DNA from: Buchnera aphidicola (Cavariella theobaldi)
GTDB lineage: Bacteria > Pseudomonadota > Gammaproteobacteria > Enterobacterales > Enterobacteriaceae
DNA: 64,000 bases
Direction: 5' to 3'
Assembly (NCBI RefSeq): GCF_964059165.1
Contig: NZ_OZ060413.1
Coordinates: 372,001-436,000, forward strand
In this document: positions 24,428 through 28,196 of the stretch, piece by piece
Layout: each line of letters opens with the position of its first letter
How positions within the stretch are numbered: position 1 is the stretch's first letter
Program-made: the position numbers and the translations under genes
The notes under the pieces: model-generated
What the model saw: the letters and a program-made list of their open reading frames with translations, nothing else
Databases searched by the model: none
Told to the model about the DNA's origin: nothing

Positions 24428-24820
24428 TTAACGTTTAGAAAATTGTGGACGTTTTCTTGCTTTACGCAAACCCACTTTTTTACGTTCCACTTGTCTAGCA
24501 TCACGTGTAACAAATCCAGCCTTTCTTAATTCTATACGTAAAGATGGATTATATCGAATTAAGGCGCGAGTGATTCCTTGTCGAATAGCACCTGCTTGAC
24601 CCGAAATTCCCCCACCTTTGACTGTGATATAAATATTAAACTTGTTTATCATATCAAGCAATTCTAATGGTTGTAATACAATCATATAAGAAGTTTCACG
24701 ACTAAAATACTTCTCTAAAGATAATTTATTAACAATAATACTACCATTACCAGATTTTAAAAACACTCTAGCAGAAGAACTTTTACGACGTCCTGTTCCA
24801 TAATATTGAGTATAAATCAT
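24428..24820 (-). CDS. rpsI: 30S ribosomal protein S9
   Basis: Small-subunit protein whose C-terminal tail touches P-site tRNA. The 130 residues equal the E. coli length. [17 protein letters not shown] at the N terminus, [18 protein letters not shown] in the middle and the terminal [17 protein letters not shown] with the conserved final arginine are all intact. It follows rplM by 15 bases, the standard rplM-rpsI operon. Confidence 0.97.
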
Positions 24821-24835
24821 TAACTAAAAACTCCA

Positions 24836-25264
24836 TTAAATACGTAATAATTGAGGGCATTGTGCTTCATGATGATGATTTTCATTTGCAAAAACTTTTA
24901 ATTTTAAGAACATGGATCGACCTAATGATCCTTTAGGTAACATTCCTTTTACGGCAATCTGAATGATTCTTTCCGGATAACGAAATAACATTTCTTCAAA
25001 TCTTAATTTTTTTATACCACCTACATAACCAGTGTGATGATAATAAATTTTATTTGTATATTTTTGTCCTGTTACTAATATTTTTGATGCATTTAATACA
25101 ATGATATAATCTCCAGCATCGAGATGAGGGGTATACTCTACTTTATGTTTACCTCTTAATCTATGAGATAAAAAACTAGCCAATCTTCCTAAAACTTGAT
25201 TAGAAGCATCAATATAATACCATTTTTTTTTTATATTATGCATTTTAGCCGAAAAAGTTTTCAT
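24836..25264 (-). CDS. rplM: 50S ribosomal protein L13
   Basis: Early-assembling large-subunit protein. Started at [19 protein letters not shown] it has 142 residues, identical in length to E. coli L13; the ATG five codons upstream is discounted. The family blocks [44 protein letters not shown] and [16 protein letters not shown] are all present. First gene of the rplM-rpsI pair. Confidence 0.97.
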
Positions 25265-25567
25265 ATAATATTCACTCAAAAAAATTATTATTCATATAAT
25301 AAAATAATACTATGATTATAGTTAATAAGATATAGTAAATATATTTTTGCTAATAAGATATTATAATTATTCTTATTTATGTATTTTAATTTAAAATATA
25401 AAAATTCATCACATAAATAAAAATATTTTCTTATAATAAAATCTTTTATTAATTCAATATAGTAATTTTGATCAAGAAAACAATACAAAAAATTCTTATA
25501 ATATTTCAAATACAAATTTATACTATTTTAGTATATATCATTCATCTCATATAAATAGGTTGTTTTT
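25265..25567. other. divergent rplM/pheA intergenic region, 303 bases
   Basis: A/T-rich spacer with the promoters for both genes. I searched upstream of pheA for a phenylalanine-rich leader peptide and attenuator like E. coli pheL and found none. A 75-codon open frame on the minus strand here is judged accidental. Confidence 0.5.
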
Positions 25568-26725
25568 ATGAATTCTAAACCTTCTTTACCACCTATACGT
25601 AACCAAATTAATAATATAGACAAAAAAATAGTTTATCTATTAGCCGAAAGAAAAAAATTGATTTTTACTATTGCTGCATCTAAAATTCAAAATAATCAAG
25701 AAATACGTGATATAGAGCGTGAAAAAAAATTATTGCATGATTTAATTAATTATGGAAAAAAATATCATCTTACCTCTGAATATATTACTTGTATTTTTCA
25801 AATCATTATTGAAGAGTCAGTTCTAACTCAACAAATGTTATTACAACAATTTTATAACAACAATAAAATTTATCCATCCAGCTTCTCTTTTTTAGGTCCA
25901 AACGGATCTTATTCTCATATTGCACTTAATGAATATGCACAAAGAAATTGTAAAAAATATATTGAAAAAGAATGTTCAACATTTGAAGAAGTTCTTCTTT
26001 CAGTAGAAAATAATTATACTGATTGCGCTATTGTACCTATAGAAAACAATTCTTCTGGCGTTATTTCTGAAGTTTTATCTATATTGAAAAACATTAATTT
26101 ATTTATTATTGGAGAAATAAATATTTGTGTAAATCATTGCCTGTTAGGATTAAAAAATGCTAAATTAAAAAATATAAAAACAATATATAGTCATCCACAA
26201 CCATTTAAACAATGTAGTAATTTTATTAGACAGTTTTCTCATTGGAAAATTAAATACTCTAAAAGTACAACAGATGCCATCAGAACAGTAGCTCAATATA
26301 AAGATATAACTAATGCTGCATTGGGTAGTGCAATAGGGGGAAACATATATAAATTAAATATTTTAGCTACCAATGTCACCAATCAAGAAAAAAATATTAC
26401 AAGATTTATATTATTATCTAAAAACAAGATAAATATTTCTCCACAAATACCTGCTAAAACAACTATTATCTTCAATAAAAAAAATACATCTAACGATCTT
26501 GTAAAAATATTAATATTACTACAAAAAAACAATATTACTGTAAAAACGATATCATCTAAAATAAAACAAAATAATCTAATAGAAGAAGTGGTTTATGTTG
26601 ATATTCCATTAAATATATCATCGTCATTAATGCAAGATATTATTAAAAAGGTTATACACCTTAATACAAATATAAAAATATTAGGTTGTTATCCCAGCGC
26701 AAAAATTATACCAGCAGTATTGTAA
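25568..26725 (+). CDS. pheA: bifunctional chorismate mutase/prephenate dehydratase (P-protein)
   Basis: Converts chorismate to prephenate and prephenate to phenylpyruvate, the precursor of phenylalanine. The 385 residues (386 in E. coli) hold the mutase domain (1-95) with RDIERE near 47-52 and SVLTQQ near 84-89, the dehydratase domain with IPIEN-type VPIENNSSG and the catalytic TRF at 278-280, and a C-terminal ACT domain. The ACT phenylalanine-binding motifs GALV (309-312) and ESRP (329-332) of E. coli are NDLV and SSKI here, which should weaken feedback inhibition. A leader attenuator is also absent. Phenylalanine is a nutrient Buchnera supplies to its host. Confidence 0.97.
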   Translation: MNSKPSLPPIRNQINNIDKKIVYLLAERKKLIFTIAASKIQNNQEIRDIEREKKLLHDLINYGKKYHLTSEYITCIFQIIIEESVLTQQMLLQQFYNNNKIYPSSFSFLGPNGSYSHIALNEYAQRNCKKYIEKECSTFEEVLLSVENNYTDCAIVPIENNSSGVISEVLSILKNINLFIIGEINICVNHCLLGLKNAKLKNIKTIYSHPQPFKQCSNFIRQFSHWKIKYSKSTTDAIRTVAQYKDITNAALGSAIGGNIYKLNILATNVTNQEKNITRFILLSKNKINISPQIPAKTTIIFNKKNTSNDLVKILILLQKNNITVKTISSKIKQNNLIEEVVYVDIPLNISSSLMQDIIKKVIHLNTNIKILGCYPSAKIIPAVL

Positions 26726-26843
26726 AAGCCCATTAAAAGTATTAATTTATTTTTTATTAGCACCTCTCATCAAACACTGAGTTATATAATATAATTCTTG
26801 CAAATCGATTTATTATCACTATTAACTTAAAATGAGTAAAAAT

Positions 26844-28196
26844 ATGTTTGATAACTTAACTGAACGTCTTTCACATACTTTACGTAAAATTACCCATTCA
26901 GGAAGACTTACAGAAGAAAATATCAAAAACACCACTAGAGAAGTTCGAAAAGCGCTACTAGAGGCAGACGTAGTATTATCAGTTGTAAAAAAATTTATTA
27001 ATAATGTTAAAAATAAATCTATTGGTCTTAAAATTAATAAAAGCTTAACTCCTGGGCAAGAATTTATAAAAATAGTAAAAAATGAACTTATATTAGCCAT
27101 GGGAGAAAAAAATAATAAATTAAATTTTTCTGTTCAACCTCCAGCAATCATATTATTTATTGGTTTACAAGGGGTTGGAAAAACTACAAGCATGGTAAAA
27201 TTAGGAAAATTTATTCAAGAAAAACATAAAAAAAAAATATTAACTGTGTCAACTGATATTTATCGTGCAGCTGCAATTAAACAGTTAGAAATATTATCAA
27301 AACAAGCAAAAATAGATTTTTTTCCATCTTATGAAAATCAAATTCCTGTTGATATAGTACAAAAATCTATAACATATGCTCAAAATAAGATATATGATGT
27401 TTTATTAATTGATACAGCAGGAAGATTACACGTTAATATAAAATTAATGAATGAGATAAAAAAAATTCAAATTTTATCTAAACCAATTGAAACTTTATTG
27501 GTAGTTGACTCAATGATGGGGCAAGATTCTATAAATATGGCGAATATTTTTCAAAATTATGTTGATATTTCAGGAATATTTTTAACAAAAACAGATAGTG
27601 ATTCACGCAGCGGTATTGCGCTTTCTATACAAAACATAACTGGAAAATCTATTAAATTTATCGGAACGGGAGAAAAAATACATCAATTAGAAAAATTTTA
27701 TCCTGAAAGAATGGCAAATAGAATTTTAGGAATGGAAGATGTTGTATCTCTAATTGAAGATATAGAAGACAAAATAGACAAATCACAAATTAAAAAATTA
27801 ACTAAAAAAATTAAAATCGGTCATAATTTCGATTTAAATGATTTTTTGATACAAATAAAACAAATGAAAAAAATAGGAGGTTTAAATCATTTAATAGAAA
27901 AATTTTTTCATAAAAATATATTACCTGAAAATCAATTAATAAATTGTAATGAAAATACATTAAATACTATAGAAGCTATAATTTGCTCTATGACTCCGAA
28001 AGAAAAAATGACACCAAAAATTATAAAAGGATCTCGTAAAAAAAGAATTGCATTGGGATCCGGAACAAATATTCAAGATATTAACAAATTATTAAAAAAT
28101 TTTGATGATGCTAAAAAAATGATGAAAAAAATTAAAAAAAGCGGCTTAGGAAACATGATGAGAGGTGTGAAAAATTTTTTACCTAAAAAATTTTAA
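26844..28196 (+). CDS. ffh: signal recognition particle protein (SRP54)
   Basis: With 4.5S RNA targets nascent membrane proteins to FtsY and SecYEG. The 450 residues begin MFDNLTERLSHTLRKI, matching E. coli; an ATG four codons upstream is an alternative. N domain with ALLEADV, G domain with GLQGVGKTTS, DTAGRLH and TKTD, and the M domain with KGSRKKRIALGSG for 4.5S RNA binding. Two oddities: the usual DGDARGG reads DSDSRSG, and the methionine-rich finger loop of the M domain is diverged and less hydrophobic. The 4.5S RNA gene is not in this window. Confidence 0.95.
   Translation: MFDNLTERLSHTLRKITHSGRLTEENIKNTTREVRKALLEADVVLSVVKKFINNVKNKSIGLKINKSLTPGQEFIKIVKNELILAMGEKNNKLNFSVQPPAIILFIGLQGVGKTTSMVKLGKFIQEKHKKKILTVSTDIYRAAAIKQLEILSKQAKIDFFPSYENQIPVDIVQKSITYAQNKIYDVLLIDTAGRLHVNIKLMNEIKKIQILSKPIETLLVVDSMMGQDSINMANIFQNYVDISGIFLTKTDSDSRSGIALSIQNITGKSIKFIGTGEKIHQLEKFYPERMANRILGMEDVVSLIEDIEDKIDKSQIKKLTKKIKIGHNFDLNDFLIQIKQMKKIGGLNHLIEKFFHKNILPENQLINCNENTLNTIEAIICSMTPKEKMTPKIIKGSRKKRIALGSGTNIQDINKLLKNFDDAKKMMKKIKKSGLGNMMRGVKNFLPKKF

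Follow-up and report, generated by a model that had tools for sequence, protein, structure and literature searches.

Does the pheA gene of this Buchnera lineage encode an enzyme that phenylalanine can no longer restrain, and if so, was the control removed by selection for overproduction or did it lapse under relaxed constraint? The question arises from a 64,000-nucleotide stretch (the window) of the 598,844-base genome of Buchnera aphidicola from Cavariella theobaldi, in which both phenylalanine-binding motifs of the PheA regulatory (ACT) domain depart from those of Escherichia coli. The locus comprises the following features, in window coordinates:

24428..24820, − strand: rpsI
24836..25279, − strand: rplM, the upstream neighbor of pheA, on the opposite strand to it
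25280..25567, + strand: upstream region with no recognizable pheL leader, attenuator, or terminator-like site
25568..26725, + strand: pheA (chorismate mutase/prephenate dehydratase/ACT, P-protein), 385 amino acids plus stop
25595..25834, + strand: chorismate mutase domain, residues 10-89, catalytic residues intact (PF01817, 62.9 bits, over the cutoff)
25886..26428, + strand: prephenate dehydratase domain, residues 107-287 (PF00800, 187.1 bits, over the cutoff)
26399..26407, + strand: TRF motif, residues 278-280, intact
26453..26695, + strand: ACT domain, residues 296-376, predicted β-α-β-β-α-β, with more than half of the conserved positions in 297-364 lost
26492..26503, + strand: residues 309-312, NDLV (GALV in E. 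coli)
26552..26563, + strand: residues 329-332, SSKI (ESRP in E. coli)
26579..26581, + strand: residue 338, Ile (Trp in E. coli)
26675..26695, + strand: KILGCYP, the final ACT strand, residues 370-376, conserved when the remaining domain decays
26832..28196, + strand: ffh, the downstream neighbor of pheA

The gene order rpsI-rplM (opposite strand), pheA, ffh marks Buchnera-type pheA loci; the neighbors are named rplM, rpsI, and ffh from their proteins. A small contig of the same genome matches Buchnera pLeu plasmids (75 to 77% identity among the matches listed), and plasmids of its relatives match Buchnera plasmids named for their hosts. The protein has P-protein architecture, a CM_2 domain followed by a PDT domain in a single chain. 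Its best match is NCBIfam NF007910 (residues 3-382, 419.9 bits), below the curated cutoff of 577 that 158 of the 246 genomes of the family pass; we named it PheA from its domains and full-length collinearity rather than from this cutoff. A sequence-only reading of the window had described the catalytic domains as intact, and this is confirmed: both domain matches exceed their cutoffs, and the catalytic positions are all kept, namely R11, R28, K39, D48, R51, E52, S84, and Q88 of the chorismate mutase (8 of 8) and T278-R279-F280 of the prephenate dehydratase.

The same reading had GALV replaced by NDLV and ESRP by SSKI. Global alignment with PheA of E. coli MG1655 (L038) had no internal gaps, and alignment of the window protein with 80 named free-living PheA proteins placed the motifs in the same register under four MAFFT settings; thus, a shifted but preserved motif, which we considered, is excluded, and NDLV (309-312) and SSKI (329-332) stand as described. 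The pocket substitutions are E329S, R331K, P332I, G309N, A310D, and W338I, with L311, V312, and S330 retained. The change of Trp338 to Ile, absent from the earlier reading, falls at a position where mutations make E. coli PheA resistant to feedback. ESRP and G[AS]LV, the ligand motifs that serve as the criterion for phenylalanine-inhibited prephenate dehydratases, are present in every one of the 80 named free-living proteins, which are the best of 509 relatives, and the window protein has neither, so the comparative alignment proposed as a check on the reading confirms the motif changes. By title, these 80 are free-living Enterobacterales or metagenome bins, one being titled Chryseobacterium and none Buchnera; the 509 relatives came from a contig search with an alignment as the query. 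In a 51-row free-living set that may overlap the 80 (E. coli plus 30 best-scoring and 20 lower-scoring proteins chosen from the 158 genomes above the NF007910 cutoff), there is no variation at G309, L311, V312, E329, S330, R331, or P332, and A310 is 96% conserved. That the departures come from a sequence error, a frameshift, or a wrong alignment register is so improbable that we set it aside: in addition to the gap-free full-length alignment and the single register given by four methods, the KILGCYP end is conserved in frame, and pheA was found, with related changes, in all 36 genomes of the window's genus.

Attenuation through a phenylalanine leader appears to be missing as well. No Rfam Phe_leader match was found in positions 24820-27200 even at E values up to 10, with E. 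coli as a positive control scoring 132.3 bits, and no terminator-like site was found in 25260-26850, bearing out the statement that no pheL-type attenuator is visible upstream. None of the 36 genomes of the genus has a Phe_leader match over the cutoff. Two candidates were discarded: a subthreshold match in genome G005 (30.8 bits against a cutoff of 55), which is some 10 kb away from pheA and on the opposite strand, and an upstream FFF-containing frame in the window (25196-25315, TTG start), which is mostly antisense to rplM.

We think it likely, judging from the residues lost and kept, that the window PheA is insensitive to phenylalanine and has a sound catalytic core. According to PMC11980547, a prephenate dehydratase with NSRP in place of ESRP is not inhibited by 0.5 mM phenylalanine. 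Continued regulation by phenylalanine, through a pocket that has diverged, seems to us quite unlikely, albeit with some points to recommend it. L311, V312, and S330 are kept, and the ACT fold is predicted to be intact in an AlphaFold2 model of the window protein (pLDDT by tens about 65 to 90), whose input alignment, otherwise made up of free-living proteins, favors an ACT fold. The best Foldseek matches of this model include the phenylalanine-bound prephenate dehydratases 6vh5, 2qmx, and 3mwb; 6vh5 has A-A-L-Y and E-S-Y-Q at the aligned motif places and binds phenylalanine nonetheless, and therefore departure from the motifs is by itself no proof of lost binding. However, 6vh5 retains the Glu that is missing from the window protein, in which E329, G309, A310, R331, P332, and W338 have changed all together, and a working pocket also fits poorly with the fast evolution of the ACT domain in the window lineage and with three relatives that have no intact ACT domain (both described below).

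Loss in the window extends beyond the two motifs. Of the sites invariant among the 51 free-living proteins, the window protein keeps 75 of 94 in the catalytic part and 11 of 27 in ACT residues 297-364 (Fisher p = 0.0002); within the latter, motif sites (3 of 7 kept) fared like other sites (8 of 20 kept; p = 1). This bears on the cause. Desensitization may have been selected, the removal of feedback having raised the phenylalanine supply to the aphid; such an explanation shares the insensitivity proposed above and differs in its cause, and we rate it as a real possibility though not the one we favor. Against it, the motifs of the window have been hit no harder than other sites in the front of the ACT domain. 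The cause to which we lean is relaxed constraint.

Across the genus as a whole, motif positions are the worst-kept class: their mean retention is 0.29, while other sites in ACT 297-364 reach 0.57, catalytic sites 0.78, and sites at the end of the ACT domain 0.81. Among the 35 of 36 PheA proteins used for ACT counts (L037 was left out), none keeps E329 or P332, while R331 is kept in 2, S330 in 21, G309 in 17, L311 in 30, and W338 in 16; V312 is kept in the window alone, whose protein has lost both the GALV side and the ESRP side. Loss of E329 and P332 throughout the genus (neither is kept in any of the 35) is what selected desensitization would produce, but a conserved absence is also compatible with relaxation. 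At the other end of the domain, K370, L372, G373, and Y375 of KILGCYP are kept in 35 of 35; since this last strand persists where the domain has otherwise decayed, its role is probably structural. In the catalytic part, Lys replaces R279 of the TRF motif in 7 of the 36 PheA proteins of the genus.

Rates of codon change appear to separate the lineages that keep G[AS]L from those that do not. The ratio of ACT to catalytic dN was 2.15 [1.49-3.10] between the window and L004 and 2.08 [1.41-2.98] between the window and L003; six G[AS]L-keeping pairs, pooled, gave 1.11 [0.75-1.60]. In these six pairs, pooled dN/dS of ACT 297-364 was 0.18 [0.11-0.31], close to the 0.15 to 0.16 of the catalytic domains, so half of the pocket has changed while the domain has otherwise been held, a pattern that favors selected desensitization. 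In contrast, four GAL-lost pairs are near neutrality (0.76 [0.49-1.25]), which speaks against it, although this value is soft because the pairs form one clade with low ACT dS (0.20). The pairs were grouped after the motifs were known, with L028-L035 (mixed state) dropped and L026-L025 added; for the ten first-chosen Buchnera pairs the ratio of ACT to catalytic dN was 1.48 [1.15-1.87], overlapping that of free-living pairs (1.20 [0.69-1.94]).

Purifying selection on the ACT domain in the G[AS]L-keeping pairs, which are relatives within L003-L019, raises another explanation: the ACT domain of GAL-keeping Buchnera may have been retuned, to another ligand or to a locked active state, with this function later lost in the window lineage too. 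A motif pair like SGAL...TSQ[TN] with NPWEEMFYID recurs, with variants, among L003-L019, and selection acts on the ACT domain of the six pairs as it does on the catalytic part. However, shared ancestry is enough to conserve the motif, purifying selection may serve folding or dimerization alone, and in the reference pair L004-L007, which keeps GAL, ACT dN/dS was 0.70 on low dS. We regard retuning as unlikely. As for the window lineage itself, the wider comparison suggests a regulatory domain that is decaying rather than one finely retuned.

In some relatives no intact ACT domain is left. L037 comes from genome G019, which has a plasmid identical to that of Pentalonia nigronervosa Buchnera (CP061276). 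The pheA frame of L037 ends at E. coli position 294, just past the catalytic domain; T278 and F280 are kept and R279 is Lys. About 305 bases lie between the frame stop (locus position 1168) and the first matched ffh residue (about 1476), and the genome-search match in G019 extends to query residue 316 across two stops. A paper on Pentalonia Buchnera (PMC7245037) names frameshifts in lipA, fabB, bioA, and trpG, and its main text does not mention pheA. In one further genus with the Buchnera gene order, represented by L096 (G161) and L275 (G262), chorismate mutase and prephenate dehydratase are in separate frames, the latter ending at about residue 286-288 with TLF at the TRF place, and the search for an ACT domain gave no match. 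In L096, ffh begins about 110 bases after the prephenate dehydratase frame. From these sequences, prephenate dehydratase activity in G161 and G262 seems doubtful. Downstream of the stops in L037, L096, and L275, a direct search revealed no significant ACT remnant (best E value 0.16). Together, the eroded ACT front of the window (dN ratio 2.15) and the loss of the domain in relatives are as relaxed constraint predicts.

Other Buchnera-type genera show that the loss is not universal. The gene order rpsI-rplM/pheA/ffh is present at 22 of 22 further full-length PheA loci outside the window's genus (14 + 8), of which L076, L280, L281, and L077 retain ESRP and L089 has EARP. L076, L280 (GSLL/ESRP), and L281 belong to the same genus as Buchnera of Formosaphis micheliae, and a plasmid in the genome of L077 matches one of Neophyllaphis podocarpi Buchnera at 94% identity and 98% coverage. 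Because these four Buchnera-type proteins keep ESRP, desensitization should not be claimed for all Buchnera. In L094 (G125, Buchnera of F. micheliae), pheA is spread over three reading frames, while those of its congeners L076, L280, and L281 are whole and have ESRP.

In a tree of residues 1-290 (the catalytic part), Buchnera-type rows form one branch (100/99), as do the 36 PheA rows of the window's genus (98/99); the window has an end branch of 0.49 and is one of 22 rows that group together (100/100), 14 of which keep G309. The tree took 14 of the 51 free-living rows and 5 of 11 aligned rows from other small genomes, and broken or partial loci were excluded from both alignment and tree (L094, L095, L096, L097, L098, L275, and L276). 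The fewest changes on this tree were 4 for ESRP and 9 for G.L, with L037, which has no residues at the motifs, scored as lost and EARP and ENRP scored as kept; these counts suggest that the pocket motifs were lost repeatedly in Buchnera, with deep support that is partly weak. In particular, placement of the ESRP changes on deep branches is unsure, since the branch parting L078/L083 from the others has support of 85/57 and eight end branches are long.

Why might feedback on this enzyme have become dispensable? In the window lineage, prephenate would have no second use, the attenuator is gone, and an aminotransferase for phenylpyruvate is seemingly absent. TyrA was found in none of the 36 genomes of the genus, and the only PF00155 aminotransferase match in the window's genome is HisC. 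With such an aminotransferase seemingly absent, the host cell would be the place where phenylalanine arises, making it a poor signal inside the symbiont, so that feedback by an externally formed product on an enzyme with no competing branch may be of little use. How fast the window PheA makes phenylpyruvate would then depend on the supply of chorismate, the amount of enzyme, and the demand of the host. Phenylpyruvate is listed as a Buchnera export feeding aphid phenylalanine in PMC3246468, and pea aphid transaminases make phenylalanine from phenylpyruvate according to PMC3660198. Among the other 35 genomes, 33 have one or two further PF00155 matches; the matches were identified in detail for the window's genome alone. 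The commonest of these extra matches, a weak one, is probably glyA, judging from its length.

The sequence-only reading had concluded that the pathway is desensitized in a way that suits overproduction for the host. Its first half stands as probable, given the lost pocket residues and a published inference to the same effect; evolution for overproduction is a weaker possibility, the ACT front being eroded as a whole and relatives having lost the domain. The comparison suggests that selection for overproduction accounts for the window no better than relaxed constraint does. The loss may have been stepwise: the ESRP side would have gone by the ancestor of the window's genus, and the GAL side and the remaining domain would later have eroded separately in several lineages, including that of the window. 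More speculatively, Buchnera may have dismantled a single allosteric site repeatedly and in stages: an early ESRP change would have been held while selection still acted on an ACT domain that was retuned or locked active, near-neutral decay would then have set in independently, as in the window, and the domain would have been lost outright in Pentalonia Buchnera and one other genus; the genus of the Formosaphis symbiont and Neophyllaphis-like Buchnera may still sense phenylalanine. If so, symbionts of different aphids differ in who controls the phenylalanine supply.

The window protein resembles E. coli PheA (P-protein, NF007910) in its domain order, gap-free alignment, and catalytic residues, and differs from it in the motifs (NDLV for GALV, SSKI for ESRP), in W338I, in having no pheL attenuator, and in belonging to a genome without tyrA. 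Feedback-resistant E. coli PheA mutants have changes at Gly309 or Trp338 or are truncated near residue 300. The window protein is changed at the same places, and PheA of Pentalonia Buchnera ends near the endpoint of the truncations; in contrast to the mutants, the changes in the window are natural and are accompanied by erosion across the ACT front.

Desensitization of Buchnera PheA was already proposed in 2000: the title of Jimenez, Gonzalez-Candelas and Silva (J Bacteriol 182:2967-2969), which is cited in PMC2649895, PMC5054487, and PMC11980547, states desensitization of the Buchnera prephenate dehydratase. Judged from the title and the citing papers, that work concerns the same gene, domain, and inference; compared to it, the window lineage is also without the GA of GALV and Trp338. 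In the accessible open-license literature, we found no enzyme test of this desensitization and no report that some Buchnera keep ESRP, that others have lost the ACT domain, or that IlvH presents a contrast (see below); the accessible parts of PMC10464499, PMC9116674, PMC11188193, and PMC5702781 hold nothing on control of Buchnera PheA. Type-II plant arogenate dehydratases, which are loosely regulated, offer a parallel: here too control by phenylalanine has been eased in nature, which is held to increase the supply of phenylalanine. However, GALV and ESRP are reported to be common to those families, truncated copies apart (PMC10845154), and these enzymes are not from symbionts.

The ability of a symbiont to shut off its own amino acid output is central to host control of nutritional partnerships, and the wider comparison makes the inference of 2000 testable. 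The window PheA and the ACT-less PheA of Pentalonia Buchnera are predicted to be insensitive to phenylalanine, and the ESRP-keeping group, above all L280, to be sensitive, with intact feedback sites elsewhere in the window's genus as controls.

Two such sites were compared. In IlvH, whose ACT domain senses valine, the valine-site residues N11, G14, S17, N29, T34, and A36 are kept in 30 of 30 loci of the genus (the comparison covers 30 loci out of 36); because the IlvH ACT domain also activates its partner protein, its conservation may reflect more than feedback. In TrpE, the tryptophan-site residues P21 and L37-L38-E39 are kept in 18 of 18 loci of the genus. Since the IlvH and TrpE sites are kept, general decay of regulatory sites is not the explanation for PheA, and their retention also counts in favor of selected desensitization. 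TrpE was matched in 21 of the 36 genomes; 20 loci were aligned, among them a broken copy (L256) but not L257 or any smaller pieces, and 18 of the 20 have letters at the sites quoted. PMC5054487 describes the tryptophan site of TrpE as conserved in Buchnera and S40 as a tryptophan-feedback residue; S40 is Thr in all 18 Buchnera TrpE proteins with letters there (L206 and L238-L256), and R402 is Lys in 9 of 19. Residue S13 of IlvH, beside the valine-site residues, is Pro solely in L210, the locus of the window's genome, among the 30 loci.
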